The position numbers were made by a program, and so were the translations under genes. DNA of 64,000 nucleotides from Dactylellina haptotyla (lineage: Eukaryota > Ascomycota > Orbiliomycetes > Orbiliales > Orbiliaceae). How positions within the stretch are numbered: position 1 is the first letter of the stretch; the number at the start of each line of letters is the position of its first letter. The notes under the pieces are model-generated. The model was not told where the DNA came from and ran no database searches. It saw only the letters and a program-made list of their open reading frames with translations. The stretch lies in assembly GCA_031310005.1 (NCBI GenBank), contig CM062379.1, forward strand, positions 6,448,001 through 6,512,000, written 5' to 3'. Below are positions 13,993-43,420 of this stretch, one piece after another.

Positions 13993-16900
13993 TCAGCTGC
14001 TTCGGTTTTTACCTGTCCATTTGAAGGGCTTTTGACCAAAGTTTATAGCGACCTTGCATCCTCCGCCGGCTTGTGCAATAGTTGGGTATAACTTTCGGTG
14101 CAACAGCATGCGATCTTGGGGCTTAAATCGACCTAAAACCAGGTAAGAATCTGAGAAAAGCATGAGCGTAGGCGACTTACATTCCAAATTTCCATCACGT
14201 GTAAAAAAATACTCCCCACTCTTGTAGTCTACTCCGAACCCTACAGTCTGGCCGACCCCATATTCCGACATTTTAGTGCAATCGTCGCCGTCCCCTTCAT
14301 AGATACCGCCGTCATCCCCATGATATCCAATTGACCAAAGATGCCAGCCTGGAAAGCCATTTCCATTATATGTGAACTCGCCGCAAGCGCCGATGGCGAC
14401 ACGAACCATCTCGTTTGGTGTCTCGCTCGTGCTTTGGATTTCAATCTCAAAATATTTTGGGGTATCACTTATGCTCGATGGTTGGAAAGGACGATCTGAA
14501 CGGAGACTCAGTTCTCTCCAGGTACGTTTATCGTCCCATCCCTCCATATATACGCGGTCTTTCCTCGTCAGCTTCGCTCGCTCTTTACTTGAAAAGCAAA
14601 ATATGGACACCTACGTTTGAAAATAACCTCCAAATCTCCGTCGCATACTTCAAATGTATCCTCTACGTCCTGGTAAAGATTCCACTTTTTCCAAACCCTA
14701 GGAAATAACATATTACTTGGCCCTAATGGGGATCCTACTGGTGTTTTGGGCAAATTTTCTGGGAGCGATGACAGAGGGAGCTGCGACTGAGCAACAATGT
14801 GAGCTATAGACCAGCCATCATCGTCGACCATCTCCGCAATACCATCGTTGAGTGACGATAAAATTTTTAAGAGTTTTATATCGTTGACCTCGATTGCTCG
14901 CCTTATTTCCCGGAAGCCACTCCCAATATCGCTTAGATGATCCGGCAGTTTCGTGGTGCATTTTGCGAGGAATTCTTCTCGCCTCTTCCAGCGCGAAGTA
15001 AAAGCATCTTGGAAAACTGAAAACCCATTACGTTCTTTGAACGGGTTGAACCCTTTATCGAGCAATTTTGTAGCCAAGGCTTCTTGTTCACTCTCAAGAG
15101 CCCTGTTGCCTTGTCTGTGTCTTAGTAAATTGTAATCCAAAAACTTATCATCGAGCAGGGCTGGTTCCAGCTCAATAAGAGGAAATATCCGTTCATCCAC
15201 TTTCTCCTTGAAGTGTTGTTTCAGCAACTCTTCGAACTGATCTTGCGGCCAAATGGGCCCTTCAATTCCAGCTGCTTTGGTCGCTGTTGCTATGACTTCA
15301 AGAAGGTCTTTCCCAGTGGTAGATCCATGCTTCATGGCACGACTAAGACATGTCTTGCCGGCATTGGTGACAGCTTTGATGTCGCCATTATGCTCTATCA
15401 ACAACTTGGAAACCTTCGATTTCCCCGCTTTGATTGCAATATACAAGGGAGTCCGTCCCTTGCTGTCCCTTTTCTGAACATCCGCTACGGGAATCTTGAA
15501 ATCCGCGGGAGCTTCCCAGCTCCCAAGAAGGATCTCTGCCACATCATACTCGCCATTCATCGCTGAAAGGTGTAAGGCAGTTTGGCCCACAACATTTTCA
15601 AGTTCGAGGTTCGCTCCGTGTTTCAACAAGAGTTTAGTCATATCCGTATAGCCTGATTGGCAAGCTAGCATTAGAGGGGTCCAGAGGTCTGTCGACACCG
15701 CGTTGACATCAGCACCGCGCGATATCAGCAGCTCTGATATTTCGGAGTAAGACCGAGTTACATGTAAGGCTGACCACCCGCCGGTAGCATTTATATTAAA
15801 GCTGGCACCTGCATCGCATAGAACCTCGACGGATTCTTGGTTTCTGTACCATGCAGCGTCGTACAGCGCTGAAAAGCCGTCAGAATCGGCATTGTCAATC
15901 ACCGATTTCCAAGGAAGCTTTGGTTCACTCTCGAGCATAACTTTCAAGCAATCCACCGAGTATCTGGCAGCAACGCTTAATAGGTTCGCCTTATTAGAGC
16001 CTGTTAGGCTAACGATATCGGTCCCGTTATCAAGTAAGGCTTTCAAGAGATGCTCCAAAATTTTAGTATTTTTCCCTTCGATAGCACAAGACAGGATCTG
16101 GAAAAGTGACGATGGAGATTGCGATAATAAGTTATTATCGTGCACGGATAGCATAATCACTGTATCGGTGAACCCTTTGCTTATCGCACGCTGGAGTGGC
16201 GTCTTTTCATAGCGATCTTCTACTTTGATGTCTGCGCCAGCTTTGAGTAGTAGCTCGACGGTAAGCTTTTGCTCCACGTCTCCTCCGCTTGCGATAGAGA
16301 TGGGAGATCTGCTATTGAAATCAGTGGCGTTAACATCTGCTTTCTTCTCGAGAAGCAGCGCCACCAGCTCAGGATAGTTGGTGCAAAGATGCAGCGGAGA
16401 TGTCTTATTTTGGTTTTCTGCATTCACGTCGGCACCATGTTCGATCAGCAATCGAACGACTTCGATTCTGCCGTTTTTGGCGGCGAGGTGTAGAGGGCTA
16501 TATCTCCCCGAATCTTCGGCATGTATGTTTGCACTATGTTCGATCAAAAGTTTGGCAATGTTCAATTGTCCTTCTTCCGCAGCCTGATGCAGGGGGGTAC
16601 CTCCTTCTGCATTTTTACAATTGGGGTCCAGCTTTGTTGACAAGAGCTCTCGCACCAGTTGCTCATGGCCTTGTTTCGCTGCAACTCTTAAAGCAAGTTC
16701 ATATTGGCTTTCGCGGTCGGAGTTGAGAGGTGTTTCTTTCAGGAAGTATTTGATGATGAGAAACTGTCCCGCCCTCGCGGCTGCCACCAAAGGTGTCAGA
16801 GCGGTCTCTTTTTGTAGCTGTTGCAACCTTTTGAGAGCCTGAAGGTTACCATTTCTTGCCGCTAGATCAGCTGGAGTCAAGTCCTCGGAGTCACTAGCCT

Positions 16901-19900
16901 CAGCATCTGCTCCCGCTTCGATAAGCTTTTCTATGATGGGGATATCTCCTAACATTGCCGCCACGTGTAATGCGGTCCGTCCGTTGTCCATTTTGCGATT
17001 GATGTAATTCAAGACTTGGCCTTTCCAGCTCTGAGATTTCAAGATTAATTCCACAGCCTTTAAATCTCTAGAAAAAACTGCCTGATGCAAGAATGCAGAT
17101 CGAAAAGGTAGATTGAGAACGTCGCTTCCTGGTGCGAGGCCATCCTGGAAGCACTCTTCGACAAATTTAAGGTATCCAACCGAGAAGTTGCTTACTTTGC
17201 TCCAGTCGCTAGGAGGAGGCAAGAGATAGTTCTGCTGCAATATGGCCTCTTTGAGACAATCCAAGATCGCCACAGCTCCGAGTATAAAAGCTAGCACTGG
17301 CGCAGAAATGGTCTCTGTTGAAGATTTCAGAAGCTCGGTGCCGCTGTTGAGTTTCAAGATATGCTGTACCATCTCAAGGTCACCGCTAAGTACCGCCCGG
17401 CAAAGAAGGTTACATTCGTTAGAGCCAATCTGCAACTCCTTTACCATGCCATCAAACCAGTCCTTTGATACCAAGTATTTTACCACTTCGAGGCATCTAC
17501 TCTGCGTAACCGTCACCACCGGCAAAGCTCCGACATCTGCCTGTTTTTCATCAAATAGCTTGGTCAATTGCTGAACAGTCGAAGTGTCACTAGCGCAAAC
17601 CAAGCCGGTAATATATTCTTCCGACGAGGTATTCGGGAATATTTGGGATCGGATACTATATCCTCGTTTGGTTTGTATGGTTTGTGATGTAACATCGTTA
17701 CCATCGTTCACTACACCCAAGTCTTGGAGCGTTGATGAAAGTCCAAAGTATCTGGCGATATCCTCGGCCGTCTTGGAGGGCTTTGAGAGCTGCTCAGTTG
17801 CCTCTGTCTTAAACCTACTCTCAAAACTTGCGTTGGCTTTGAGGTATGCTTGGAACCACCTATCCCGCAAGCGCGTGTTATTTAAGAACTCGGCCACTTT
17901 TGGGCGAAGACTCGTGGCACCCCTTAATATATCGCATTGAATAAAGTGTTCGACCCAATTTCTAACGGCATAGTCCAGAAATTCCAGAGCAAGCATATCG
18001 GACTTTGTGGATGATTGTTGCTCCCATGGAGAGTACAGCTGCACCAAGTAGGCTTCCCATTCGACATCGCTTTCAGGCTCGGCTAGTACCATGCTCAGAT
18101 AATGCAGGCACAACTGTGTGAGCGCTAAGTGCTCCCTGATTTCTAAGTGATGATGTGGATCTGCTTCTTTAACCATTTCGCTTAGGCGGCCTCTGGCGTC
18201 GATAGGGTATACGAACCCGTTCTTGACTTTGACGAATACTTCCATGTGTTGGTCGAGATCTGACTCGGGATCCCTAGATATTCTTTTATCGAGGTTGGCA
18301 AGTGACTGATCTCGGAGATCGATCGCAACTGCTACTGCGAGTTCTTCAACCCTTAGAGGTCGAAAGGCCCGGAGAGCCCACGATAATCCCAGGCTGCACC
18401 AATTCAAAACCGTTGGCGATTTGTTCGCGAGTTCTTGGATTCGAAGTCTATACAGCTCTCTCAGGGAACTCGGACTTGTGTCTATTTGATCCTTGATAGC
18501 GTCAGGGGCCAGGAGCTGCGGTTTGTGCAACCCTATAAAGCGCGTAAAAAGATCGGTAGCACCGAACGAACCGCCAAAGCTGCGAACTTTGGCCTCCAAA
18601 GCGCAGCGGAGCTCATTGTTCACACCCTTCCGGAGCAGTCGTAATCTCTGGCTATTCTTGATGAGCAAATCGACCTTCTTTTCAATGAACTGGGCCTGTG
18701 GTGTTGTAAACTGCTTTTCGCATGCAACATCTAATATCACTGGTGGAACCGAGTTTAGAACATCGTCCGCAGGCGAACTCTCCGCTGAAATTATATAAAT
18801 GTAATTCACCGAATGTCGATTCAAAAATAACTCCAGTTTTTCCATCCAGGATCGCACGGCTTCACCCAGCTCTTTCGCGTGCCGTTCTTCCTTTCCAAGG
18901 CATCCGTTTCCTGACTCCATGAACTGTTTTAGATCAAAAGCAAAAGCAAACTGAATATCGGGGCAATTTGAAATCAATGAAGACAAAACCATCCATAAGT
19001 TTGGTTCCGCCCATGTATCATATTCAAAATACTCAGAAATCAGTATCTCGATTCTTGAAAACAGATCCGGTCGCTGGGATAATATTTGATGAACGCATGT
19101 TACCAGCATGCTGTACGTTTGGGTGTCGGTATCCCTGTTCGGTTCAGAAACATATTCTATAATAACTCGACTCATTGTTTCTCTTATCTTTTGGCAAATA
19201 GACCGTAGCAGAGATGCTTTCCCAAAGCCCGCAGGTCCAACTATCCAAATAGAGGTTTGGGGTTCTAGATTATCGAGTTTCAACGACTTCAGGTGCTTGG
19301 TATATATTCCTTCCAGATTCACTTCAAGAGATTCAAAGGAGGTAGAGTCGTGTATAAACCAGCGAGATGATGAGAGCATTTGCAGAAGCCGTAAATACAA
19401 CGATTTTGTATTGCCGATGTGTGTACCTGTTACGCTCGACTGGGTTAGTTGACCACTCACATCCACAATATAAAAAACTATCAGTAAATAACATACTGCC
19501 AATTAGTTGGTTTATCTGGGGAACGAAAAGGTCTCTAATGAACTGGAGATCACTAAGGTCGTTCCGATTAAACCATGGCAGGCCGACTAAATTATGATCT
19601 AGTTTCTTGACAACTTGGTAATATTGTGTATTATCACCCAGTGTGCCAAGCTCGCCAACAACCTATTGTGAATCATTTAAAACCTAGGTCAGGTAACCAA
19701 GTAAAGCCTGATAGTGAATTTTTTTCACGATCGAAATACACGGTTTTGGTCTTACTCACTGGTCCATCAAACTCTGACATCCCTTTTCCCTCAATGACAT
19801 TAACCAATTTATATTTTCTAGCAAGCCCGTAAAAGGCAGACGATAATTCCGTAATATCGTCCACTAACTCTGGTAGTGTTTCTGACAAACGGCCGTGTAA

Positions 19901-20843
19901 AGATAAGCCAGTATCGTGAACTATGGAGACTAGTAGGTTCTCCCATGACAGGAGGCTATAATTTCGATGGGGAGTAGCGAAAAATACCTGTCAAGTTAAG
20001 AGTCAAAGACCGAATTAGTATTCTGAATAAATTGGGGTTTAATAGTGAGCGAGGGCGATGGTTTTCAGGCTGCAAAATTCTAGGTGCCACGCGCCTACCA
20101 AATGTGAAATCTGCAAAGCAACCCGATAGTACAATGGGTCTTTGTTTGCGAATATAATGGCCTGGGAGAAGTATAGACTTGTGTTAGTATCTCAGTTATT
20201 ACGCCTGACCATTGAATAACTCACCTGTTTAATAATCAACCCGCCAAGTCCATACCCTGCTAACAATATTTCTTTCCAATCTTGCTCAGGACCACAGAGT
20301 TGATTTTGGAGAGCATCTAACAAAACTAATGCCTCAGTCTTAATAGAATCTGAGTATATCTGAAGAGTATTGTCCTTTTCTGGTTCCCCCGGCTCTCCCT
20401 TATCTGCATTTTGGTGTGTTTCTGTATCCGAAATTGCTTCACCCGCTCGGTCGTTTACATCTTTTCGGTTGTCCTTGTCAGCCGCTCCAGTAGTTCCCTG
20501 CGAAGTCGCCTCCGAATCCTCCAAAGATTGTGTTTTACGCGCCGTAAAGGCTGAATATTGGTATATCTCAGCTTCTGGGATAACCTGTGGCAGAATTTCC
20601 GGCAGCGAATGAGCAGCCTCGGGATCTGGATGCACTATTCTCTTTCGATTTGTATTATTGAATCCGACAAGACAAATTCTATATCGGTCACATTTTGGTT
20701 TAATGAACAAGTCAAAGATTGTGATAGAAGCGTGGAACTTACACGTATGTTCCGACAGCATTCGGTCTTGTACCCAATCGCTCAAGAGGAGAAACGATAT
20801 TGCTCTCATTCCCTTGCCCGTCGCCGATACCAATACTCGCCAT
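13993..20843 (-). CDS. NLR: alpha/beta-hydrolase, NACHT, ankyrin repeats, SPRY
   Basis: Seven exons (reverse): 20843..20743, 20678..20225, 20161..20099, 19987..19760, 19662..19497, 19426..14667 and 14610..13993, about 2,129 aa with all phases consistent. The last junction is least certain; a donor at 14648 would also fit. N-terminus: a SesB-like alpha/beta-hydrolase domain with VHPDPEAAHSLPEILP, the nucleophile-elbow region LLAGYGLGGLIIKQ, and VFFATPHR. NACHT-type P-loop GPAGFGKAS sits at 401-409. At least 14 ankyrin repeats lie at about 1150-1700 (TPLHQAAEEGQ, SPLHLAAKNGR and others). A SPRY domain ends the protein (EYGVGQTVGFGVDY, GEYFFTRDGNL). Such proteins are intracellular receptors in fungal incompatibility and immunity-like responses. 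The elbow has Gly where the catalytic Ser should be, and I see no clean Walker B motif. Confidence 0.85.
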
Positions 20844-21703: not shown

Positions 21704-22612
21704 TCATGCCAGTTTTGTAGTTCCCAGCGCAGCACCGAAGTCCTCCAAATTAGAAAGCAGTTTCCCAAGCGCATCCTTTTCAACTTCTGCCGCTAGCTTT
21801 TCTTCTAGAGCAGACGCTAATGTTGGTGCTCTCAGATAATCAAGACCAGGTTTCATCCAAACTGGGTCGTTGGCAGGAGCATGACAAAGGTTTCGTAAGC
21901 CCCAGGCGGTATTTTGGAGGAAATTACCAGTTGCTGTAATTTTGACGAAGACCCCAAATCTGTCCGTGTCAGCACCTTTTCTCAAAACCAATACAGGGAC
22001 CCTCAAGTCCGTGACGACTCCAGTTTTGTTGCTTTCGTCCTCCGTTAGAGTAAGACGAACTGCATTTTTTGGTCCGTAATTTCGAACCTTTAAATCCAAT
22101 ATGATTGATCCGGTAATAGTGGACCTGTCGTTGTACTGGTATTCTGTTTCCCGCTCGAGCTTCAGAGCGACCGTTGCCGCTAGCCCCACAGCTCCCGCTT
22201 CCCCTCCCACCTCGCCGCCAGTCAGGTTGCGCATTTTGACTGGGGTTTCGGTTAGCGTGAACTCCCCGTTGGGCCACATTCCAACCACTACTGGATCCTT
22301 CCGTGCCCTCTTTTTCTCATCCTGAAATAGTATTTTTATTTCTGCTGTGCGAAGCCGTCGCTCTTTGTGAAGCCCATGAAAACGAAATCCAAATACAATA
22401 AGCGTTGCTGGCTCCCCGCCCTGTGTTTCAGTTCCATGGACGACGCGATCGAGTCGGGCCTGAACAAACATCCCCATGCACATTTCATCAATTATATCTG
22501 GACGTTGGTTTTCATCGCCGTCGTTTATATTGTGAAATCCTAGGTCTCCTTGGGCGGTTTGGAACTGGATAGGCTTAAATTCAAATTCGTCGACAGCTGT
22601 ACTGGCCGACAT
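21704..22612 (-). CDS. Uncharacterised 302-aa soluble protein beside the subtilase
   Basis: Single-exon gene starting MSASTAVDEFEFKPIQF. There is no signal peptide or membrane segment. The sequence looks beta-rich with alternating hydrophobic strands (ATLIVFGFRFHGL, GSIILDLKVRNYG, FGVFVKITATGNF) and ends in a charged helix (LASALEEKLAAEVEKDALGKLL). A glycine/alanine-rich segment (GGEVGGEAGAVGLAA) lies mid-protein. I do not recognise a family. It is head to head with the S8 subtilase gene, with 661 bp between the start codons, so co-expression is plausible. Its place between an NLR and an intracellular protease suggests a partner or adaptor role; this is inference from position only. Confidence 0.8.
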   Translation of the reverse strand: MSASTAVDEFEFKPIQFQTAQGDLGFHNINDGDENQRPDIIDEMCMGMFVQARLDRVVHGTETQGGEPATLIVFGFRFHGLHKERRLRTAEIKILFQDEKKRARKDPVVVGMWPNGEFTLTETPVKMRNLTGGEVGGEAGAVGLAATVALKLERETEYQYNDRSTITGSIILDLKVRNYGPKNAVRLTLTEDESNKTGVVTDLRVPVLVLRKGADTDRFGVFVKITATGNFLQNTAWGLRNLCHAPANDPVWMKPGLDYLRAPTLASALEEKLAAEVEKDALGKLLSNLEDFGAALGTTKLA

Positions 22613-23273: not shown

Positions 23274-26200
23274 ATGAATTCGAATAGATCACCTCAAAAA
23301 GGATTGGGCGGTGGCCTACAAGATAAACGGAAGAAAAATCTTTGGGAAAAACAAGGTGAAATTACGAGAAATCACGAATACCTTATTAACGAAATTCTCA
23401 GTGAAGAAACTGAAGGCGGCGGGGAAGACGAAGTCGATGAAGCCCCCATCAATATCGCTGAATTGATAAAATCCGATAGATACAAAGACTGTATAGAGAG
23501 CCAAGGCCGCGATGGTTGTAACCTGTTGCATGCTTTGGTCAAGCAACTGGATCACTTCTATCGAGGAGATGAAGATCCAGACCAGCCCGACCAGTTCTAC
23601 ACAGATCTTGAGGGAAATACCAAGCGTCATATTAGTGAAGAAATACTAGAACTCGTCGAACACATAGTGGTTCTAAACCCCCATCTAATTTTTCAGCTCA
23701 ACAAGTCGAGAACAACTCCTATTGCGTCCTTAACAAAATCGTACCCGGATATCTTTTTCCATATGATGGGAATGCTGCCATCCGACAAAGAACTCGAAAT
23801 TTTCATGCAAAAGTGCGAAAGAACCACTAGTCCAAACACCAACGTTACTAAACGTTCGGATTGTCCACTAAAAAGACTCCCGAAAAATCTACAGAAACAC
23901 TTTCTCAAGGAGAGCGAAAAAGACATCTCCAAATTAGAGAAGGAGGATTGCCTCCACCAATTTATCAATACAAAGAAGCTTGAGACCAAGATCGTGGATA
24001 TCAAAAAAGAAATCAAAGAGTTTGTTGCCACAACAGACCAAGCTAGGACTTTTCTTCACATCCTTTTAGGAGTTGATAGTTTCCATCCGGCATCTGCATC
24101 GAACGACCAAGTTAGGCACAAAGCTTTCGAGATGATTGCGGGTTTCTTTGCGGAAGCGAATGGAGATGTTTTCAATACACCGAACACTCATGGTTTGAGT
24201 CCACTCCAAGTGGCCGTAATGCATTTCAACCAAGGTTCTAAAGTCAAACATGAGCTGCTTTACAGAACTATCAAGATATTAGTCAAGCTGCAGCCAAATT
24301 CAATATACTTCAAAGCCACTGAAAATGCCATCAAGCAGGCTCGGAATAGAACTGCCTATGACCTACTCCGAGACTTAAAGGGCACTGTTGCCAAGCATAC
24401 AGAGGCGTATACGTACCTAACAAAAGCTGAAAACTTTTTAAAAAAGACTTGCATTCAGCACATGGATTTGATTGCACCGAATGGTGAGCCAATTGACAAA
24501 GTGAAATATTTATATTCTGATAAAATAATTTCTGGTATGTTTTGAATAACCCCATCTATGCCTCGTCTGAAAATATGGTCGAAAAAATTGCAAATACGTT
24601 CTAGAAAACTAATATGAACGGTATAATCTCAGGGCGTCGACTAGATTTCGACTTAACACATGACATATCATCAATTATCGACGAAGAATATATCGACATT
24701 CTCCGTGAGAAAGCAGCTATTCAATTTGAAACCATATTAGAATGCGTCAAGCTTCCGTACAGGTCTCCGCCTCCCATGGTAACAGAGCCACCCCCGGATC
24801 CTGAGGAACTTGAAAGGTATCATGCAGAAGATCCGTACATCAGTGTATTTCGCTGGTTACGGGGTGATGGGAAAGTTGAGAAGATATTCAAAATCGAAAT
24901 TGACGATATTGGAGACGATCCTCTGAATTCAAGCCTACTCCCGCATAGTAACTTTGCGATTAGAACATGCCTCAATGAAGATTTCGCGCCCGTTGATGCA
25001 AAGCCTAGTGAGCTGGAAGCTTCGAAAGAAAAGAAAGGTCTTGGAGTTGAAATATGGGATTGGAAAAAGCTAGATATCTGTAGTGACACGATTCGGCAAG
25101 CAGCCCCCAAGGTCAAAGAATTGAAACTTTATTCGAGTGGGAATACAGCTGTATTAAAGGCTTGGGCTTGTGCTGAGGGTCTCAGAAATTTGAAAAGTGT
25201 AAGTTGAAATGTCTTTAACTAAAAGCAGATCTTAAACAATCCCGCTAACTGTTTCTTTCCATTTCCATAAAGTTACAAAAGGTTCACGTAACGATATACC
25301 CAAAGGTATGTTTTTTGCCCCAGGTCTACCATATGGACGCCAGACACACCGCTTATAAGTGAGAGCATGGTTTAACAAGGTTTTTCAAATAGAATCGGAG
25401 AGATGAAGTTGATTGTAAACGCTATCTCCCCGACTTTGAATCAAAAGTTCGGGGTGGTAATGGTGTCAATACGGGACAACAAATTGAAGTTGAAGTTGAC
25501 TTGAAACCGCCACCGAGTTCTAATGGTGCTGATGCATCTTCTGAGAAGGACTCACGTGAAAATGAGGCAGATGAAAAGTGAGCTAACTTTAACCCTATTG
25601 AGCTTCAGGTGTGTTACTAACATTGTCAATAGACACCAAGTGGACAAAACCCTAGACTGGATTGAAAAAATGAGCAAGTTTAGGGAATGCGTACAAGAAG
25701 TTATTGACTCCATATCTCCAATGGCGTCCCAACCAGTTATCAAGGTGGCAGTCATTGATGACGGCGTAAATATAGTAGACAATGGAGTCCAGGGTATCGA
25801 AAAGGGAGAGTCCTTTGACACAGGTGGCCAACTATACTTCAGTGAAAAGTGCAAACATGGCACACATATGGTTTCAAGCCTTCGAGAAGTTTGCCCTAAA
25901 GCTAGGATATTCGTCGCGCGTTTAGATGACAGCAGAAAGCAAGATGGCCAACGATTCACTGTGAGCTCCGCCATCCGAGTAAGTCTCCAAACTCTATGAT
26001 CCTTAAATTTTCATCTATTAACTGCGGTCAACAGGCGTTGGAATGGGCAATACACTGGGGAGTAGATATCATCTCTATGAGTTGGTCCTTTAAACCCGAC
26101 CGAAACAGTTGTACATCCGAAGAGGAAGAGAAATTTAAAAGTCTTATTGATATTGCCAGCGCTAAGGGTATAATTATGTTTGGGGCGATGCCTGACGGGG

Positions 26201-26715
26201 AGGACGTTACAAAACGGTACCCGGCCAGCCTATCCAAAGTCATAAGAATCTGCGCCGCAACAGAAAATGGCCTTCGTTTAGATGCCATTCATACCTCGGT
26301 TCCAGAGCTCTTATTCCCAGGCGAAAAAGTACCGGTTCCCGAATCGAATTTCGACATTACTGGAAGCTCCGTTGCAACCGCATTAGCGGCTGGATTCGCA
26401 GCTTTGATTCTCATCTGCATGAAGTTGCAGGAAACAGGAATTTTAGATCAGAAACAACGAGGTGTAAACGAAAAGCCATCTGTGGATCAAGTCTCCTTAA
26501 CAGAGCGGTTAAAGGAGCGCAAAACAACCGATGGAATTAGAGCAATATTCAAGGCATTTTCTAAAGCACACGCAAATACCAAAGACTTCCTGGTGCAGCC
26601 GTACTACCGGCATGAACAACTATTCCAAAACACTGGGACAACTGAAGCGCAACGCAAGCTCACAATCAGCAATTTTCTGCAGAAAGCATCATGGGTGGAA
26701 TATATGAAAATCTAA
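23274..26715 (+). CDS. Intracellular S8 subtilase with ankyrin-like N-terminus
   Basis: Six exons: 23274..24534, 24633..25198, 25273..25305, 25393..25577, 25633..25978 and 26035..26715, giving 1,023 aa. All phases close; the fourth intron has TTACTAAC. There is no signal peptide, so it should act inside the cell. Residues 1-420 contain helical, ankyrin-like segments (GCNLLHALVKQL, KSRTTPIASLTKSYPD, NTHGLSPLQVAVMHF). The peptidase S8 domain occupies about 715-980 with Asp724 (VAVIDDGV), His757 (KHGTHM) and Ser909 (TGSSVATALAAG). The oxyanion Asn expected near FGAMPDGED is not present. Subtilase domains also occur as effector modules of fungal NLR proteins, so a role in programmed proteolysis near the NLR is plausible but unproven. 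Confidence 0.87.
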
Positions 26716-30061: not shown

Positions 30062-30514
30062 AACTGCGGTTCGATGACTGAAGACTAGTCTAAAGGGGTT
30101 TACTTCTTGCGTTTTGGAGGATTGCGCAATTTCCGTCTAGAAATTTTAGTGCTCATCGATTGCGAATGTCAAGGTGAAGCAGGACAATATCAAAATGTGT
30201 TACTGCTGCCACTGGAAATACCCATCACATGGGGGATCGGCTAGCTTCCCCGGGTCTATTACCTCGGGAATGGTTTTTAGAAGAATCTAAATCCAAAGAA
30301 AGTGCGCCTCCAACGCTTCGCTTCAGCCGGGGGACGCAGGCGGCAAAGCCGAAACCTGGGGTATCTAGGAATTCGAATGCAACCGTAAAAATATGGTCGT
30401 ACGGATATCTGGATTCAAAAATATTCAAGACGTCCTAAGACTTGATGCTCGACAACAAGACCAGGTTCCCCGTGCAATCAACTTCAATATCACCAGCGTT
30501 TTCCATATCTTCCG
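30062..30514. promoter_or_regulatory. Divergent promoter, GST-kappa and dehydrogenase
   Basis: 453 bp between the start codons of two divergent genes; any shared control elements would be here. Short open frames inside are shadows of each other on opposite strands. Confidence 0.5.
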
Positions 30515-31611
30515 ATGGCACGACTACCAGTTGCTTTGGTTATTGGCGCGTCCCGTGGCATTGGCCGTCAAGTAGCCATTGATCTCGCAAAAAATGGATA
30601 TAAAGGTATATTTTGTGGCCTATCTCCGAAATCAGGACTTCTACTGAAAGCTAACTTTTCGCAGTGGTTGTGGCTGCAAAGACTGTTAGCGATGATTCCA
30701 GCACAGCACCATTCCCCCCAGACCCCAACTCACAAAATTCTACTATCACCACTGTAACTCGTGAAATCCGTGAAGCTGGCGGTGATGCAACAGCGATACA
30801 AGTGGATACGAGAAGCCCCGAGAGTATCAATAACCTGATCGAATCGACCGTTAAGCTTCACGGTTCGCTTGATGTTCTGATTTATAACTCGGGTGCTATC
30901 TGGTGGTCGTCCGTGGAAAACACACCGTTCAAGCGGTTTAAACTTATGCAGAGCGTAAATGTGGAAGGATTATACGCGACTGTACAGGCTGCCCTCCCAC
31001 ATTTTAAAAATAATGGCTGGAAGGGACGGATAATAGTGATTAGCCCTCCAATATACTCGCGTTTCTTTCGAGGAAAGACGGCATATGCTATGGGCAAAGT
31101 TGGAATGTCCGTTTTGACTAAAGGGTTGGCAATGGACTGGAAAAGAGAAGAGAAGAAAGAAATGGCGATCACGAGTCTTTGGCCCGCAGTTGTATGTTGC
31201 CCTCCAAGATTTTGAGAGGTTACGATAGATATTAACAATTGAACAGGCAATACAATCGGCTGCTACGCCAGACCCGAAGATGTTGGCCGAATTGAGAAAA
31301 CCTGTAAGTAATTCTAATAGACCTTTTTATGTTATCAAATAGACTAACAGACTCCAAAGACCATCTTTTCGGATGCTATACTGGAAATTATAAGGTCGCC
31401 AGCGGAAGAAGTCAGCGGGCGCTTGGAGCTGGATGAAGATTTTCTCCGCACAAAGGGAGTCACTGATTTCTCGAAATATAATGTGGTTCCAGGGGCAAAT
31501 CCACGCCGCATGCTTCCGGCCGTGCTTCCAATATTAACGGTGCCGGAGGAAGACGACGAGGGGAACCGCATTGATAGTTCAAAGCTTGCAAAGTTTACAG
31601 CAAAAATATAG
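30515..31611 (+). CDS. Short-chain dehydrogenase/reductase, HSDL2-like (308 aa)
   Basis: Four exons: 30515..30605, 30665..31191, 31247..31303 and 31360..31611. The last acceptor could lie 9 nt upstream, adding TPK in frame. N-terminal cofactor motif GASRGIG and NSGA, and active-site Ser157, Tyr171 and Lys175 (TAYAMGK) define a classical SDR that uses NAD(P)H. The C-terminal part (TIFSDAILEI…VSGRLELDEDFLR) is like the hydroxysteroid-dehydrogenase-like 2 group found in mitochondria or peroxisomes. The substrate is unknown. Pairing with a GST-kappa gene suggests a detoxification or lipid role; this is inference. Confidence 0.92.
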
Positions 31612-31907: not shown

Positions 31908-34900
31908 CTAAACTCCAAAATGAACGTAAGGAACCCAATGGAAATTAAGTTCCGAGAGGTCAACTTTCTTTGCGTTTCTAGTCTCTCCTCCATTTTGATC
32001 TCCCTTAGTCGTCTCTGTGAGTTTTGTGTCATCACCAAAACCGAAGCCTTCCTCAACTGACTTTGCCCCCAATTGCAAATTACTGGTCTCGATTTCGAGA
32101 CCATCAACCATTTGTAATACGGATTGGCCACGAGCTTTCCTCATAGAACTATTGGCCAAACTTTTACTCCGGAGGGATGTAAGAGCCGTGTGAAGTGCCA
32201 GACTGATATTTTCGTCTTTTAGGCCACCCTCGTCCCGAATCGTTTTGTAAATCTTCTTTGCAATCTTGACACAATAGAGATCGTCAACTTCCCACAACGT
32301 CCCAATAACGTGCCGAAAACCTGCCAATTGATAGGCGCTTATAAGATTTATGCCTTCGTCACTAAACTTCAATTCATCGTTTGCACCTGTAGAGCAAGCA
32401 GAGAGATATGCAAGAAATGGGGGATTGTTCTGGATTTTATGCTCCCAGAGCTTGGAAACAGTGAGCGGGTCTGTTTGCCAGTCGTCTAGAAGCAGGCAGC
32501 TTCTTGAGGGATCGGATCTGTTAAAGCTGCCGTGGCCCGCAAAGTGGAATATCCCACAAGTCGACAGGCTTGATAGAATCTCGTCTCGTTGGCGAGGTGG
32601 CTTTTTGATTTCTAATCCTAGCGCTGGGCATAATTCCTCCAATACCTCTATCTCCTTCCCTGCAAAGTAGAGACTCGAATGGCCAGGTGTTTTTGACATT
32701 GATATCAAGAGAGCATCATTGGATGCTTTAAGATCAAAATCCTTTCTTTCCCGTCCATAGATAAGCGTTTTTATTGATAGACTATAGGACGAAATCACTC
32801 GATCGAGGACAGTTTCGTCTGAGTCTTTGAGATGCTTCCCTGCCGCGTGCAAGGGAAGTTGTGAGAGCGATCCGGTAGGCACCCACCGAAGACGTGGCCA
32901 TCTGTTATATTTACCTATAGGCTTGCTTGTAAACTCTAAGACGTTAAGGATAGGCTGTGCAACTACATCCCAGAGCCATTCCAAGACCTCCCATATCTCT
33001 GATTCTTCAGTACCTCTTAGCAAAGCTGCTTTAGCTGCGATTTCTCCTTGGCGTAAGTTCGGTAATTTGATTGCTCGAATCCTAGATTTTTCGACTAGAA
33101 AAGCGTGGCATTCTCGCTCTTCAGTATTGATTATCGCAATTGGACCGCCTTCAGCAGCTGCCATTAACTGTTCTGGGGTATGTGGCAGAAGAAACCTCTC
33201 AAACCCATTCTTCGAGTGGATCTCCTTCATAACTTCGACCAGTCGTTTCTCTGCATCCCGTCTCTTCTTTTTTTCGGTTTCTTGGGGGATTAAACCGCCA
33301 CCCAACATCAAGCTAGATTTGCCAGTCTCGGAAATGGGCGAATCCAATATCTGTCTCAGAGAAAGAAACTCACTCGCTAGGTCTGGATAAGCTGTCTCAA
33401 GCCCTGAGATATCCGTGCGGATTTCCAACATGAGACTTGTCACAATACCTCGCCCGAGTTCTAGAATTTGTAAAGCTTCCTGGGGCGTTCTCCCTGCCCA
33501 TAAGAAGAGTCTTGCAGCATGGGAGGCTAGCCCGAAATGTTGGCCAATAACTCCTTGTTTGTCAGTATTTTTTAATGACCGAGGTGTGATAACAAGTAAG
33601 TGCTTTACAGATTCTTCCAAAACCTTACTCGCATCATCCCACTGCCCTTTGATTTCCAGTATTCTTGCCAAGCTTCCGCCCATTATGAGATGGAATGGCC
33701 CAGTATTGTTTGGATCGTCCCATGCTGCCTGTATTATCTCGTGGGCTTTATCAAGATCTTCTATGAATCCGCTTTGCTTGTATTTCTCAAACACAGCCTT
33801 ATGATTGAGGAGGTGAAAGCACGAGCGGAAAGCTGATGACCTTCCTTTTGCGCCGGCTTCAAAGTCTTCTTTTAAATAAGTGGTTAGTTCAAGTTGTTGT
33901 TCTAAGCTTTCCATATTACCTGTCCGACTATATCGAGAACCGTGCATACCCGCGAGTAGGTTCATAGCAGGTATACTGATAATTCTATCAAGCTCCTCGA
34001 TATCAAGCAGAGGTGTTAGTATCTCAATCACATTATTGCAATCCTCAAGATCTCCTGTTACTCGGTACCGAAAGGAGTACATCTGACCCCACAGTAACGA
34101 AGCTTCGGCTGCATCCATGTCTGGTGAACTGGTGATCTTCTCCGCGACTGTCTCCAGATTTTTCAAATCTTCCAAAGCTTCTGTTTCTGTGTACTTCACA
34201 CCCAATACATGTAGGAACATTGTCAATTGTGGAAACCGAGGGTTTGATGAAGGTATGAGCTCGAGCGATTCTTGTATTAATAGAACCGCTTGATCTAGAT
34301 CCTCCATTTGGCCGGTAAGTGTGTATCGAACGTATAATAGAATCCCCAACCCTTGAATCATCTCGACTAGTGGTTCGTCATCGGATTCACTTGCTTTGGC
34401 AATGCTGAGAATTTCGATTGCTTGGTTGACATTGTCTACATTCCCATGTTTCAGATAGTGGTCCAGAAGCAACCTATCTAATCTAACATGTTGTCTTAGC
34501 GAGTGGGCTTGGGGGATCGATTTTGTCGCGCTCTTCTGGAACTCAATGGCTTTGTTGATATCGCCGGAATCGAGAATTTCGCCGAATTTGTTTATGATGG
34601 ATTTTATCGACTCGCGCACAGGACGCTCCAGGAGCTGCTCTTTTATATCAAGAAAGTTTGCTTTTCTCAAAGCTTCTCCGTCAATCGCTAAGCTCGCATC
34701 GTTTTCGTCAGCTATGATAGTGATTATGTCGGATATCTTGATGGCTCGATCAATATCTAATATAGACCCCGTATCTATTGATCGACGGGCCAAGTGGTTG
34801 TTTAACGTCCTCAATACCTCGAAGCGACGATGATAGTCAGAGCCGTGATTCTTTTCAATTCTATCCAGGGCGTCTATGCTTTTGCTCAAATGCTCTAAAG

Positions 34901-35486
34901 AGCCATTCGCTTTGTATATCTTATTATGGCAATCGGCTATATTGTATAACATTAAAACCCGATTTTGTTCGCTGAGGCCATCGAAGTCTAAAGCGGCTTC
35001 GTTCATCGGCATCATGGCCTCCAGGGTTTCAACACTAATTTTCTCAGGATTCGAAGCGGAAAGATTCCTGCCTCTTAGATTTTCCATTCCCATTCTGTTT
35101 GGATGATGCGGAGGAAGACTCATGATAGTGGTCAAGCCATGTCGATATCCCGCGCCGAAATTCTCCTTCTGGCCCTGGCCAATCGGCACCATCAGTTTGA
35201 ATGATAGGCCTATTTGGATTTCGCTACAATGGCTAGCATCTTCTTTTTTGTGCCTTTTTACTTCTTCCCATCCGATAGCCTGCTGAGTAGCCATTTCAAG
35301 GTATCTACCTAGCTGTGATCTTTCAAAGATAGCGTGGCAGATATATATGTAAAGTTCGATCTGCGTATCATTTGTCGGCTCTTTATATATTTTTGCGAGG
35401 TCTTTCAAGTCTTCAAATTCCAATTGTTCTACTAGCTCAGCCATATCAGGATCTACCTGGAATGGGATTGGCATAGTCCGGTCCAT
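31908..35486 (-). CDS. TPR-CHAT caspase-like protease (1,192 aa)
   Basis: Long single-exon gene with ATG at 35486. Residues about 150-700 are helical and repeat-like in TPR fashion (for example HLSKSIDALDRIEKN, DLDQAVLLIQESLEL, DLDKAHEIIQAAWDD). A CHAT domain follows (about 800-1120) with the catalytic His985 in FHFAGHGS and Cys1031 in YLSACSTG, both intact, plus GFRHVIGTLWEVDD. CHAT proteases are caspase relatives; TPR-CHAT proteins include bacterial CRISPR-linked Craspase and eukaryotic separase relatives. There is no signal peptide. It is predicted to cleave an intracellular partner on activation, possibly in the same pathway as the neighbouring NLR-type genes. The C-terminal tail after about 1120 is low complexity. 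A small intron in the first 150 residues cannot be excluded. Confidence 0.92.
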   Translation of the reverse strand: MDRTMPIPFQVDPDMAELVEQLEFEDLKDLAKIYKEPTNDTQIELYIYICHAIFERSQLGRYLEMATQQAIGWEEVKRHKKEDASHCSEIQIGLSFKLMVPIGQGQKENFGAGYRHGLTTIMSLPPHHPNRMGMENLRGRNLSASNPEKISVETLEAMMPMNEAALDFDGLSEQNRVLMLYNIADCHNKIYKANGSLEHLSKSIDALDRIEKNHGSDYHRRFEVLRTLNNHLARRSIDTGSILDIDRAIKISDIITIIADENDASLAIDGEALRKANFLDIKEQLLERPVRESIKSIINKFGEILDSGDINKAIEFQKSATKSIPQAHSLRQHVRLDRLLLDHYLKHGNVDNVNQAIEILSIAKASESDDEPLVEMIQGLGILLYVRYTLTGQMEDLDQAVLLIQESLELIPSSNPRFPQLTMFLHVLGVKYTETEALEDLKNLETVAEKITSSPDMDAAEASLLWGQMYSFRYRVTGDLEDCNNVIEILTPLLDIEELDRIISIPAMNLLAGMHGSRYSRTGNMESLEQQLELTTYLKEDFEAGAKGRSSAFRSCFHLLNHKAVFEKYKQSGFIEDLDKAHEIIQAAWDDPNNTGPFHLIMGGSLARILEIKGQWDDASKVLEESVKHLLVITPRSLKNTDKQGVIGQHFGLASHAARLFLWAGRTPQEALQILELGRGIVTSLMLEIRTDISGLETAYPDLASEFLSLRQILDSPISETGKSSLMLGGGLIPQETEKKKRRDAEKRLVEVMKEIHSKNGFERFLLPHTPEQLMAAAEGGPIAIINTEERECHAFLVEKSRIRAIKLPNLRQGEIAAKAALLRGTEESEIWEVLEWLWDVVAQPILNVLEFTSKPIGKYNRWPRLRWVPTGSLSQLPLHAAGKHLKDSDETVLDRVISSYSLSIKTLIYGRERKDFDLKASNDALLISMSKTPGHSSLYFAGKEIEVLEELCPALGLEIKKPPRQRDEILSSLSTCGIFHFAGHGSFNRSDPSRSCLLLDDWQTDPLTVSKLWEHKIQNNPPFLAYLSACSTGANDELKFSDEGINLISAYQLAGFRHVIGTLWEVDDLYCVKIAKKIYKTIRDEGGLKDENISLALHTALTSLRSKSLANSSMRKARGQSVLQMVDGLEIETSNLQLGAKSVEEGFGFGDDTKLTETTKGDQNGGETRNAKKVDLSELNFHWVPYVHFGV

Positions 35487-36873: not shown

Positions 36874-37434
36874 ATGCCCAGCATGCCATTCCTAGATATT
36901 TTCAAGAAAAAAGAACGTTCAGCGGCGCCAACAACTAGCTCTAGCAAGTCCGACGATATCACAAAATGGGGTAAAGAATCCGAACCCTCGTCGCGACGTA
37001 GTAGCGCCTCATCACTATCATCCCAAGGAAGCAAGCACAAACAGAAACCTCAATCTATCAACAGTGATGCCAACGAAACGCGCGCACCCCCAGCGTATCA
37101 CGAAACGCAAGTACATCCCGCTGGTCCCGCGCACCCACCCGCAAATGTGGTCCCTGCCGCTCAAAATGCCGGTATGCTCGTTGGCGGTGCGGGTGCAGTT
37201 ATCACAGATAATAGCATGGGCGCAGGCATAGTTGACGGCCTTGTGGTGGGTAATATCGTCGGCCGACAGATCCAGCAAGCGAAAAACCACGCGTATTGGA
37301 AAGACCGACAACAACAATATCTGGCGGGGGATGAGACCGCCGCGATGGGACCATCATCTAGATCGAAGAGGCAGGAGAAGCGGGAAGAGAGGAGGAAACA
37401 AAGATGGGAAAAACGGGCGGCTAGGGCTGAGTAG
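36874..37434 (+). CDS. Small hypothetical protein, disordered with Gly-rich segment
   Basis: Single exon; first ATG gives MPSMPFLDIFKKKE and a 186-aa product. The N-terminal 90 residues are Ser/Lys-rich and disordered. A Gly/Ala/Val segment follows (AGMLVGGAGAVITDNSMGAGIVDGLVVGNIVG), then a strongly basic coiled tail (KRQEKREERRKQRWEKR). The glycine-rich patch resembles those of small fungal membrane-associating proteins, but it has no clear transmembrane length. No family recognised. It may be a genuine conserved small gene, as codon use is steady throughout, but support is only from the open frame. Confidence 0.6.
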   Translation: MPSMPFLDIFKKKERSAAPTTSSSKSDDITKWGKESEPSSRRSSASSLSSQGSKHKQKPQSINSDANETRAPPAYHETQVHPAGPAHPPANVVPAAQNAGMLVGGAGAVITDNSMGAGIVDGLVVGNIVGRQIQQAKNHAYWKDRQQQYLAGDETAAMGPSSRSKRQEKREERRKQRWEKRAARAE

Positions 37435-38115
37435 GCGAGATTGAAGGTGGCCACTCGGTTCGAGTAATTTGTATTTCGCGAGGGTACTTTCGGTTGTAGT
37501 TATAACCTAAGGTACTATGGCTTATTAATGTCAACTAGGATCTCATTTTACACTATTATACGCATGCTCTTTAGATGGTGCTATCTTACCGGTTTTCTAG
37601 CCTCGATACCAGGCACTGGCTACTAGGCCAGTTTTCACAATTTCCTGCTCTGAGAGTTGCAGCTTGTTTAGTAAGGGTCTCTTAATCTCCAGTCTCTTTC
37701 CAGTGAATGGGATCCTCGTGAGGCGAGGCCGAATTGCATTTGTTGCATTTTTTTTTTTGGGGGGGGGATTCATACGGTCTTGCTAGGCTCTTGACTGGAG
37801 ATATTATCCCATAATTATGTATTAGATAGTTCTCATATAAATAACATTGTCAGTCAGTATGCCAAGTTTGCAGTTGTGCTGTAGTTTTTTGTACTCAAGT
37901 TAGTATGGTGGCACGCACATATTTTGTCTAAACGGTGTACGACACGGCAGCTTTTCTCGAAGCGAATCTTTCGCGCACAGCTCGGTAGATTGTTACAGTA
38001 GCGCCACATGTATGTACACCGCAAGTCTATCAACCAACTCCAAGACTCTATTATAACACATCGACGATACCCGAACAGAAATTTATACCAAGCTAGTCTC
38101 CCCGGTACCGAGAAA
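37435..38115. repeat. Intergenic with a poly-T/poly-G tract
   Basis: 0.68 kb, no gene. Contains a run of 11 T followed by 9 G at about 37748-37767, a spot where assembly length may be unreliable. Confidence 0.5.
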
Positions 38116-39105
38116 ATGCCCCCGAAGTATACGATTTCTCTTCGAAACAACACTTCAAAAGACCGAAAATACCACTTTTGCTTTGCTCCTCCGCCAGTCA
38201 TCAGTGATGGCTTGGACCCACCAGTCCACGCCAATGTCTGGTCCACTTCCACTGTGGCCCCAGATGATAGAATACTAATTGAGATCGATGATATTTACTA
38301 CGCTTGTACGTCTGAACCACGCATATAATTCCTACATGTACTTCATGGTGGCAAGTGGGTGTCACAGCCCTGAAACTAAATGGCAAAACTGATATTAAAA
38401 GCTTGTCATTGTTGCTTAATATAGGGGCCGGACAAAAACTGAACGTTCCATTTCGAGAGCCGAGTTCTTCTGAATGTAGAGCACCCCAAATTACTCTCAT
38501 CACCATCACATCCACTAGAAGAGTTACTCTTGCGTCCTCCAACGAACCCGGATGTAGGTAGCTTATCAAGTCCGCCATTTTCAAGGCAAAATATAACCTA
38601 GTAAACTACTAATAAAGGCTCTATACCCAGCAAGCTTTGAGACGTTCCTCGTGGATGGATATGCCGGATTACGAGCGAATACTTCACTTATAGCTAGCGA
38701 TGGCGCATTTGCAATCAAGATGGGCAAAGATATCCCCACGCCAAATGAGCACTATCTAGCTGGTTGTGCCATGAAGGCGCCGGATGGAGTAGTTCGTTCG
38801 ATCGTGACCGTACGAATCAACTTGATACCTAAATACCTAGCAATTTTACAGGTTCCCGCTAACGATATATACAGATCGAAGCTCTGCGTAATACTAGTAT
38901 CCAGATAATGCCTATCGTGAACCAAAAAATATATATTGTAGACCTGCCAGAGTTACTAAGAGCGGAGCAGTTTATGGATCTTAATACCATATCAGATCGC
39001 GCCGCTATTGTCCAATTGGAAGATGTGAGTGTACGTGGAAATTTAGACCTAGTCTCAGAGATCGAAGTCAATGCAAGGGGTTGTTCAGGGAACAAGTATT
39101 CATAA
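38116..39105 (+). CDS. Uncharacterised 265-aa protein upstream of the NLR-like gene
   Basis: Four exons: 38116..38305, 38356..38553, 38631..38809 and 38875..39105; phases close to 265 aa. It begins MPPKYTISLRNNTSKDRKYHFCFAPPP and has no signal peptide. The text looks like a beta-sandwich (YALGVTALKLNG, SFETFLVDGYAGL, AFAIKMGKDIP, NTSIQIMPIVNQKIYIVDL). No known family comes to mind. It lies 659 bp upstream of the TPR/winged-helix/propeller gene in the same direction, a layout seen where fungal NLR genes sit next to a small effector or ligand gene. That role is inference only. Exon 1 and 2 joins use weaker acceptors, so small boundary errors are possible. Confidence 0.7.
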
Positions 39106-39764: not shown

Positions 39765-42700
39765 ATGGCCTCGAGATCATTATGGAAACGCGGCCGCAAG
39801 CCGCGCTCTGACGATTCCAAGTCGATGATTGACTCTCACCCTGAATCGGCGTCACAAACTCTACCAGCCCTGCAGCCATGTAATTTTGAAAATAGTGTCC
39901 TAGAATCGAGAAAGTCTCCGAGGTCGCCAATATCCGATCAGGAAAGCATCGTTTCCCGACAAGAACACCAGGAGCCACGGAAACCAAGCCGACCAGGTCT
40001 TAATGATAGTTTCGGGTTACAAATGCAAGAAAATATCTCAATACCAATAAAGGTAATACTGAAAAATCCACGTTTCGTTCAAATCTTTATTTCAGCATGC
40101 AAGAATATTGACTCGTTAAGCCCAGCCATACCTAACTCAAGCCGAAACCCAGTCAATTTCATCTCATGACATTAAAAATCATGTCGAAGCATCATCGACT
40201 TCACTATCAACGCCGTCCTCTGAAACCTTTTCAAGAAAATCAATATCTCTGTCAGAGAATCAAATTACCCAGGCCATCTCAGTAGCGGAATCCGCCATTG
40301 CTGCGCCTCGAACGGAGAATACACTACCCTCAACTGTTTCGATTAGGGGGTCCTCTATCTCATTGCCTCAATACTCAGCTACAGATTCGGAAACAACATC
40401 CATTAATGAAGACAGACTACCACACACTCCTATGCACGATTCTGATCTTAGCTCTGATGATTCATATTCATCCGATGATTCCTCTGTACTCAGAAAGAAA
40501 GAGAATATCCGGAAATTGGGGCGGATTCGAAGAGTTGAAGAATGCAAATTCGCCCTCGGAGATGCACTAGAGCAGAAGGAATGGCTTCAAGCGAACAGAT
40601 TGGCCGATAAACTGACGCTATTATTGCCAGAAAACGGAGAAAATATGCCCGACGAATGGATAGTGGATTTAGCAAAAATAGCTTTCAAAGCTGATTGTCT
40701 CCCGCAACCAGACATCATTGCTCACCTCTCGAGTGTTAGCAAAGGCCCCCATCAAGATCGAACGGTTCCTCCGAAGCTTCAAATTGAAGCCCTGTTTCTC
40801 GAAGGGACGGTATTTTCAAGATTACAAGAGTACAAAAAGCTATAAAATGTTTTAAAAGAGGACATAAATTGGCTCGCCAGAATTTACTCGCAGGAGAAGT
40901 GAACGATTTCCGTAAAATGCTTCTCATCGCATATGAGAAATCAAACCAACCAGAAGAGGTAGCTGTTTATAGTGACCTCCTACCCGAAGGCTATCAACCA
41001 ACATCACTAATGCTCCTTCAACCGCAATATCTAACGAAATCAATTCTAATGGAATCAGCTTTAAGGCAGCAATGCCTTCATAAGTTGGACGAGCTATACG
41101 ATATAAAAGAATTCAAGGGAAACGACGCTACTCAGCAACAATGTCGGATGATATTTGCCCTCGTCTCAGTCGCTCCGGTGCCTGTTCCATTGGAAACCAT
41201 CGCGACCTTATGCTATATCCCAACGGAAAAAGTCACTGAACTTATATCGCTATGTCGGGGTATCTTTAAAACCGAACAAGAGAGTATAACCCCACAATAT
41301 GCAAATAAAAGACTTATCGTAAACGGAAATCAACAATCCAGCTTGCTCATTTCTTTCGCAAATCAGCACTTCCAGAAATTATTCACGGAGGCGCCTCAAC
41401 ATCGGGGTGTTTTTGCCTTAGGCCCTACCATTGACATTCACAGAAGATTATCTACTAGACTTTTTGAAAGGATGGATAGATCCCTTAAAGAGGATATCTG
41501 TAATATAAGAGCATACGGAACTCGAATAGTCGATATCAAATCGCAAACGATATTAAACGTACTTCCCGGGTCATTGCAATATGCTTGCAGATACTGGCTA
41601 TATCACCTCCAAGCTGGCGAAATCCCCCCTATAGATTCTAATGAATTCCAAACGTTCTTCTCTAGACATAGCATCCACTGGATTGAAACTATGGCCATCA
41701 TAGAATCTTGTAATTCGGCACTATTGATAGTCCGAGAACTCAAAAGAATTGATGTAAGTCTTGATCTTGCCAAATATAGTATTAAAATACTTCTGACATC
41801 CCATTACAGCTTAGAAAAGGATCTGCTTTCCCAGAAAGGCTTATCAGCATGATTGATCACATTGAGAGGCTCCTAACTAGATATACTATCAAATTTAGCA
41901 CTACGCCACTTCAAGTTTACTACCTCGACCAGATTCTCCAGTTTGAGCAGAACTTTTCACTTTTTAATACCACCAAGAAAATGGCCCTTACGATACATGA
42001 TATAGAAGACCAATCTTCCGTTTCGAAACGCTTAGAAGTCGAATACCAAAAATTCTGCCAAGTACTAACGGCAGAGAATGATAACGACCAACTTTTAATA
42101 TTCTCTCCGGACTGCAGACGCCTTGCTTATCGCAAACGAAATACGGGAGTTGTTATAGTGAAGGATCTGTCTGTCCCAAATTCTAGCACTATGCTTGTCA
42201 CCAAGGAACAATCTATTGTCAGCATGTGCTTTGGGATTCGGGATAACACTCGAACAGATATATTAGCGATAGCTACTCTCGCTTCTATATCAACCTGGGA
42301 TTTGACAACTTGTAAAACTCGAAGAACCATCGTCCTAGAAAAAAGCTTAAAGTGGGGCTATCTCGCCGGCCCAAAGATTGAGTTTTCACCTAATGGAAAA
42401 CGACTTGGAGTTCTGACACTTAACCGAATATTTGTTATCGATGAAGGGTCAGGATCAGCACTCTACTCCGCAGATTTTGGAAACGTCGCATGGCTGGACT
42501 TCACATTTTCCTATGATAGCGGCTCCATCATAGCTACAGATCGAAGACTACATCTATACAAAATTTCGGAAAACACCGCTGACAAACTCTCGGGGCTTAA
42601 ACCCTTGGAAAATGGATATAATCAACTCGCTACAGGTCACACCGAACTATACGCATCGATTAAGAGCCTTCCAAATGAAACTATCTTGATCTCACATTGT

Positions 42701-43420
42701 TTTTCCTCGAATACCATTTGTCTTACCACGTCTGGAAAAGATTATTTCACTTTTGAAGGGCAAATCGGTAAAGTTTCTTGCGCTATTTCCCCGAATCAGC
42801 GCCGAATTTCACTTGCAAGTGATGGTAATATCACAATAGCACAACTTTCCAACGGCCAGCTAGTACAAGATTTCAAACCCCCAGATATTCGGCACCGAGA
42901 CCTTCTTTTAGCGTCCGCGTTTTTTCCATCAGGTGATGTCCTAATCACAATTGGAAAATACTCCGGCCTGATCTGTCGGACCCTGCTTTTGGATTTGGAA
43001 ATAAAGGATGAATGGGTAATGCGGGGTAACGAACGGCTTGTCTGGATCCCACCAAATTACCACGCGACTATTATCTCGCCAGAAAGAAGCAATTGTGTAT
43101 TACTGACCCATCAATCTGGCCATTCCATCGAGATGTCATTTACACTTGGAAGCCCTGGAAATCTCAACTCAACCAAGAAGCCTTTGGACGTCTCGAAATT
43201 TCTTCCTCTGGTACCGAATATATCTAAAATGCAGATTCCAAACGAGAATCTCGGACGAGAAGCTACTCCGAATAATCTGCCTCAAACGCCGAAACCAAAA
43301 GCTGGTCTGGAAGACGCAATGGCAGCTACACAAGCTCTACAACGGCAAATGCCAGCCCATTTCCCTCACATTCTGATATGTTTGGCATGCGTTTTGGCAT
43401 TTCTTTGGTATTCAGGATGA
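39765..43420 (+). CDS. NLR-like protein without NACHT: TPR, winged helix, beta-propeller, C-terminal anchor (frameshifted)
   Basis: Exons 39765..40052, 40126..41753 and 41810..43420. Exon 2 holds a frameshift: the frame ends …LQEYKKL-stop, but re-reading one base back at 40839 gives EYKKAIKCFKRGHKLARQ and stays open, which is the expected TPR-like text. With that shift the product is 1,175 aa. Order: Ser-rich disordered region (1-230); helical repeats; a winged-helix-type segment normally found behind NACHT (FALVSVAPVPVPLETIATLCYI); a conserved NLR linker (DRSLKEDICNIRAYGTRIVD, YACRYWLYHLQAGE); a WD40-like propeller (about 680-1080); and a hydrophobic C-terminus (HILICLACVLAFLWYSG). No P-loop is present anywhere. 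The tail suggests membrane anchoring by its C-terminus. Confidence 0.75.

Follow-up and report, generated by a model that had tools for sequence, protein, structure and literature searches.

A probable accessory stretch of immunity-type genes in Dactylellina haptotyla, with an NLR, an orphan and a subtilase-like gene as a possible unit

Gene content and order

The window, the whole 64,000-nucleotide stretch of Dactylellina haptotyla DNA analysed here, covers positions 6,448,001-6,512,000 of contig C1 in a genome of 39.8 Mb and 11 contigs. Its genes between 14 and 43 kb are of known kinds, and a trio of neighbours, the NLR gene A, the small orphan B and the subtilase-like gene C, stands out as a possible unit. 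On balance, we favour the explanation that this is an ordinary accessory stretch, in which several separate genes of immunity type are neighbours of one another and of two metabolic genes, and in which the trio is the likeliest real unit. It is unlikely that genes A to H work together in a single pathway. A first-pass annotation had described the region as a single immunity or incompatibility island. Its observation was largely right, but the island reading was not supported by the tests possible in the organism's own genome, leaving the proposal partly supported.

The features are as follows, with gene models built from a simple splice and codon model, without transcript support.

Left flank: carboxypeptidase with carboxypeptidase Y propeptide, housekeeping (Pfam)
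Gene A, 13993..20843, minus strand: NLR, modelled at 2129 aa in 7 exons, start uncertain
Gene B, 21704..22612, minus strand: orphan of 302 aa in one exon, no family assigned
Gene C, 23274..26715, plus strand: subtilase-like (S8) protein with a long N-terminal region, modelled at 1023 aa in 6 exons
Subtilase domain of C, with loss of the Asn, 25633-26715
Gene D, 27319..28175, minus strand: RING-YEATS protein, modelled at 257 aa
DSBA-type gene, 29108..29831, minus strand: Pfam match of 33.5 bits, model incomplete
Short-chain dehydrogenase (SDR), 30446..31212, plus strand: 79.7 bits, two frames, model incomplete
Gene E, 31908..35486, minus strand: TPR-CHAT-like protein, 1192 aa in one exon
Gene F, 36883..37434, plus strand: low-complexity protein of 183 aa, no family
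ORF G, 38008..38905, plus strand: small multi-exon protein, exon structure and gene model uncertain
Gene H, 39765..43420, plus strand: NLR-like protein without NACHT, modelled at 1151 aa
Right flank: Nop16, a SANT/DAMP1-type protein and Saf4/Yju2, housekeeping (Pfam)

Pfam and the gene models recover each kind of gene named by the first-pass annotation, namely the NACHT-ankyrin-SPRY NLR, the subtilase-like gene, the RING-YEATS and TPR-CHAT genes, the NLR-like gene without NACHT and the small ORFs, and the housekeeping flanks are likewise present on both sides. Absent from that annotation were the DSBA-type gene, which we take to be probably a GST kappa, and the SDR, both of which sit within the claimed island, between D and E. 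Beyond the claimed island come two weak matches that fall short of their cut-offs, one methyltransferase-like (E 0.0084) and one F-box-like (E 0.0027). Genes A, B and C are compact and adjacent, spanning 14.0-26.7 kb, with B and C divergent and 662 bp from start to start, while F and G lie 1.4 kb and about 2.5 kb upstream of E, respectively.

Motif losses in genes A and C

The stop-to-stop open frame of gene A is 1644 residues long. In it, Pfam recognises ankyrin repeats (332 bits) and the NACHT-type domain NPHP3_N (36.9 bits), and the exon that follows carries SPRY (40.4 bits). The N-terminus resembles a degenerate alpha/beta hydrolase, with a DUF676 match of 12.3 bits (E 0.12, cut-off 20.3). 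The elbow of a serine hydrolase is expected to read GHSxGG. In A it reads GYGLGG and lacks the serine nucleophile motif (G-x-S-x-G), the assignment to the hydrolases being itself weak. The Walker motifs are altered too, with GKA closing Walker A and FDLKQF in the Walker B region, so both GK[ST] and the Walker B acids are missing. The same pattern search found GK[ST] in eight of eight comparison NLR loci and, in seven of them, D-[AG]-LDE, although these loci are the best NACHT matches and hence biased to the canonical form. The ankyrin part of A matches other repeat proteins in the same genome, as expected, and residues 1-873, which exclude the ankyrins and SPRY, have no relative elsewhere in that genome at E <= 0.001.

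The spliced model of gene C matches Peptidase_S8 in Pfam with 54.3 bits, and alignment with subtilisin BPN' and the S8 proteins of the same genome places the Asp-His-Ser triad. The oxyanion-hole Asn is missing from C and is found in all 11 other rows of the own-genome alignment that reach the site; of the 14 loci tried, two (L028 and L029) gave no row, and the row of a third (L019) ends before the oxyanion site. In its own genome, C has one weak S8 match at E <= 0.001, with 25% identity (E 1.4e-4).

These losses could mean that A and C are decaying relics of a once active NLR and protease, a reading that we consider unlikely. It would account for the absence from A of the hydrolase serine motif, the Walker A Ser/Thr and the Walker B acids, for the absence from C of the oxyanion Asn, and for the low score of A against NPHP3_N (39.8 bits), which most family matches in the same genome exceed. 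Relics would, however, be expected to carry stop codons and frameshifts, whereas A is open over its 1644 residues and the first of the six exons of C is open over 420. The TpA/ApT ratio is 0.69-0.85 across 12-44 kb and, set against the RIP threshold known for this ratio, is not suggestive of RIP. To judge by its sequence, A is probably a relic or a pseudo-enzyme that serves as a platform; its long open frame, kept despite the motif losses, may point to a pseudo-NLR retained for binding.

Gene B and the gasdermin reading

Searches of B against Pfam, NCBIfam and PADLOC gave no match. No relative was found in plasmids, viral contigs or prokaryotic genome contigs, collections that reach close relatives only or are without fungi, and pattern matches to B (32 in genome contigs and three in viral contigs) included none that was confirmed. 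In its own genome, the search at E <= 0.001 returned only B itself. The single-sequence structure model of B is poor (mean pLDDT 38.8). It shows strands as far as residue 228 or so, then a C-terminal tail formed by helices at 266-276 and 280-295.

One explanation of this small gene is that B and C, with or without A, form a gasdermin-protease pair of the HET-Q1/HET-Q2 type, in which C would cleave the C-terminal tail of B and so release lethal membrane pores. According to one review, some 80% of the gasdermin genes of fungi sit in clusters with their own proteases, about 63% with S8 and 19% near CHAT (PMC10197012). B adjoins the S8 gene C, as is usual for fungal gasdermins, though a neighbouring protease gene is not defining by itself. 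B is also 302 aa long and combines strands with a C-terminal helical tail in its poor model, and HET-Q1 is described as shedding a C-terminal piece of about 5 kDa (PMC12881547).

Against this, B matches no family in the three databases, and a phmmer search of PDB chains up to E 10 gave a sole match to an unrelated antibody chain (E 1.6), despite the RCD-1 pore structure deposited as PDB 8JYZ; the divergence of the gasdermin family is too great for such a one-sequence search to exclude membership. A fold search with the poor model gave no match at E <= 0.001 and 477 matches up to E 10, the best 50 of which are mostly lectin-like and include no gasdermin. A leukocidin and an alpha-hemolysin scaffold, both of them beta-barrel pore proteins, are among these 50 and would favour a pore former, but, like the rest, they are not significant. 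The missing oxyanion Asn of C also tells against the pair. Judged from the sequence of B and its predicted model, nothing in this analysis establishes B as a gasdermin, and we regard the gasdermin pair as rather unlikely.

Genes D to H

Gene D carries RING and YEATS domains (YEATS E 2.1e-12, pYEATS 1.3e-8) and has no paralogue in its own genome at E <= 0.001. A literature search found no paper joining YEATS, RING, CHAT and NACHT with fungi, and a broader search had no RING-YEATS title among the matches listed.

Gene E matches CHAT in Pfam with 105.4 bits. Its His motif, HFAGHG, was found by a pattern that is present in seven of 13 CHAT loci, the window included, and its Cys motif, SACSTG, was read by eye in the translation, the automated Cys pattern having no match at E. 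The two protease types proposed for the locus thus hold for E, which has the full CHAT signature, and fall short for the subtilase C, which is without its oxyanion Asn. The TPR label of E comes from the first-pass annotation and from comparison with the Csx29 TPR-CHAT model rather than from a Pfam TPR match: Pfam reported no TPR family at E <= 0.01, and the weak match to the Csx29 model (26.7 bits, far below the cut-off of 300) covers the CHAT part only. Six close paralogues of E (478-573 bits, from ORFs cut at the locus ends) are found among the 12 other CHAT loci.

No family was assigned to F, which has no paralogue in its own genome at E <= 0.001, and the two exons of G that were scanned gave no Pfam match. 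Gene H has a single paralogue of nearly full length, at C2:656-660 kb. The two are 44-45% identical, and the paralogue is likewise without a GxxxxGK[ST] P-loop. Seventeen further genome matches to H fall mostly on the segment after NACHT in NLR frames, and 16 of these lie within 3 kb of an NPHP3_N match, by comparison of the two lists by eye. The C-terminus of H has a hydrophobic stretch (mean hydropathy 1.93) to which nothing in the paralogue's last frame corresponds, and in the structure model of the last exon (mean pLDDT 32.9), values of at least 50 are confined to the C-terminal helix.

Clustering across the genome

Immunity-type families were mapped across the genome and placed at random for comparison. 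After matches were merged by hand per gene, NLRs occupied 110 places (from 49 NACHT and 121 NPHP3_N matches) or 109 (NPHP3_N only), S8 proteins 43 (from 49 matches, secreted ones included), CHAT 13 and PNP_UDP 34 (from 38 matches); HET domains gave eight matches. The lengths of C1, C4, C5 and C7 were estimated for the rotations.

At least one NLR, S8 and CHAT triple within 30 kb arose in 9.3% of 4000 trials with uniform placement and in 8.7% of 3000 family rotations, falling to 4.2% at 20 kb and 2.6% at 15 kb. At 13.5 kb, about the real domain span, it arose in only 2.5% of the 3000 rotations, a rarity that argues against a reading of separate neighbours, although the span and the families were picked after the locus had been seen.

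Seven of 13 CHAT genes lie within 30 kb of an NLR against 1.84 expected, a number reached in 0.2% of rotations, while the counts are three of 13 at 15 kb (7% of rotations) and one of 13 at 10 kb (51%). PNP_UDP genes lie within 30 kb of four of 13 CHAT genes against 0.59 expected (0.6%), and an NLR lies within 30 kb of 10 of 43 S8 places against 6.08 expected (6.6%). CHAT proximity to NLR and PNP_UDP genes indicates that immunity-type genes tend loosely, throughout the genome, to share regions, a tendency into which this region fits, and, since CHAT and NLR genes are near each other more commonly than by chance, it looks like an ordinary accessory region. Within 10 kb, CHAT and PNP_UDP also occur together at two of 13 places (0.22 expected), and PNP_UDP lies within about 6 kb of two CHAT genes (C10:2375787-2387040 and C10:962076-964948), on both sides in one case.

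For CHAT and S8, the sole pair within 30 kb is that of the window (one of 13 CHAT genes against 0.81 expected, 55% of rotations), and at the 12 other CHAT places no S8 match listed lies within that distance. S8-CHAT linkage as a general feature was therefore rejected.

The same figures bear on the proposal that the whole of 14-43 kb is one incompatibility supergene. The gene types fit, and the mapping of incompatibility loci in Aspergillus fumigatus has led to CHAT and NACHT-ankyrin genes (PMC11138114). However, the DSBA-type gene and the SDR interrupt the series, the NLR, S8 and CHAT triple occurs at near-chance level at 30 kb, and no S8 accompanies the 12 other CHAT places. These three results make the reading as a single island weak, and the supergene, which was rejected on the same grounds, is very unlikely.

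Flanks of the paralogues

Ten stretches around paralogues and related matches were read: 5 kb at the 5' side of each of the six close CHAT paralogues, of which 3.2-4.4 kb lies upstream of the gene start, 18 kb around the paralogue of H, and some 8 kb at two other S8 matches, one of which looks by eye like a secreted tripeptidyl peptidase. The 381 ORFs from these stretches and 171 ORFs from 13.5-46.5 kb of the window were compared all against all by phmmer.

In the six CHAT flanks, the only matches were the CHAT/TPR-type frames themselves, accompanied by two opposite-strand shadow frames, and one SDR. The other flanks yielded the paralogue of H, parts of ankyrin and S8 type, and a match between the PNP_UDP genes of two flanks, and nothing else. 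By phmmer, B, D, F and G are without a relative in the ten stretches, and none of the six upstream regions of 3.2-4.4 kb holds a relative of F or G. The CHAT flanks bear on F and G only, C, D and H being farther from E or on its downstream side. Comparison of paralogue flanks does not reach the linkage of A, B, C, D and F, which are without a close paralogue in the genome. No gasdermin was recognised in the flanks, which were read without a gasdermin profile.

The paralogue of H is not near any CHAT or NLR match. It adjoins a PNP_UDP gene (C2:654180-659887, L069/L070), and PNP_UDP is a domain used in fungal incompatibility. A subtilase lies about 10 kb away, at C2:647.6 kb; it begins with a signal-like segment and, by eye, looks like a secreted protein, and a link between the H paralogue and an immune-type S8 was rejected on this account.

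Comparison with known systems

The immunity or incompatibility character ascribed to the gene content agrees with described systems. Fungal gasdermin-type death pathways are reported to be often clusters of two or three genes (PMC12881547), clusters with S8 or CHAT proteases are recorded (PMC10197012, PMC12881547), and S8- and CHAT-bearing NLR genes stand beside gasdermin genes (PMC9815663). HET-Q1/HET-Q2 and the Podospora CHAT-gasdermin pair resemble the locus in joining an S8 or CHAT protease that has a long repeat or sensor-type region with a small neighbour gene. The locus differs in that B is not recognisable as a gasdermin and C lacks the oxyanion Asn.

In A. fumigatus, hetB, a CHAT gene, is reported as a validated incompatibility gene, and a NACHT-ankyrin gene as the unvalidated candidate for hetE (PMC11138114). 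A literature search joining the CHAT domain with heterokaryon incompatibility, NACHT, ankyrin and Aspergillus gave two papers, both of them among those cited in this text. The domain types and the broad kind of locus are common to both fungi, whereas hetB and hetE are at separate loci, and here the CHAT and NACHT-ankyrin genes lie side by side with others.

Gene A shares its domain order with SesB-like hydrolase-NACHT NLRs, together with the residues GGLIIKQ...FFATPH around the nucleophile, which we assume to be a motif of that family. Unlike these NLRs, A has Gly in place of the nucleophile Ser, both of its Walker motifs are degenerate, and SPRY is at its C-terminus.

The A-B-C trio

Gene content, gene order, motif losses, copy numbers and clustering statistics were observed directly, and every functional step that follows is one that we infer. 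Since its enzyme motifs are gone, A would serve as a binding platform and, together with the subtilase-like C, would control the small protein B. The others would likely each act in an established way of their own: E as a caspase-like protease under the control of its own long N-terminal repeats, D as a ubiquitin ligase and H as a scaffold.

Within the accessory stretch that we prefer as the explanation, the trio A-B-C is favoured because the three genes are adjacent, A (residues 1-873) and B have no relatives and C a single weak match in the genome, and B and C start divergently. For a unit as such, the sole support from the sequence would be adjacency. A stronger version makes the trio a three-gene death module, in which a pseudo-NLR, its hydrolase and nucleotide sites not working and its role limited to that of binding platform or bait, and an unusual subtilase would control a small strand-rich effector other than a gasdermin; we hold this to be quite unlikely.

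Had the 30-kb stretch proved a single island, it would have counted as a fungal 'defence island', which the evidence here does not support. If the trio A-B-C is real, the fungal protease-effector cell-death clusters would gain an effector family, and A would provide a case of an NLR working without its enzyme motifs.
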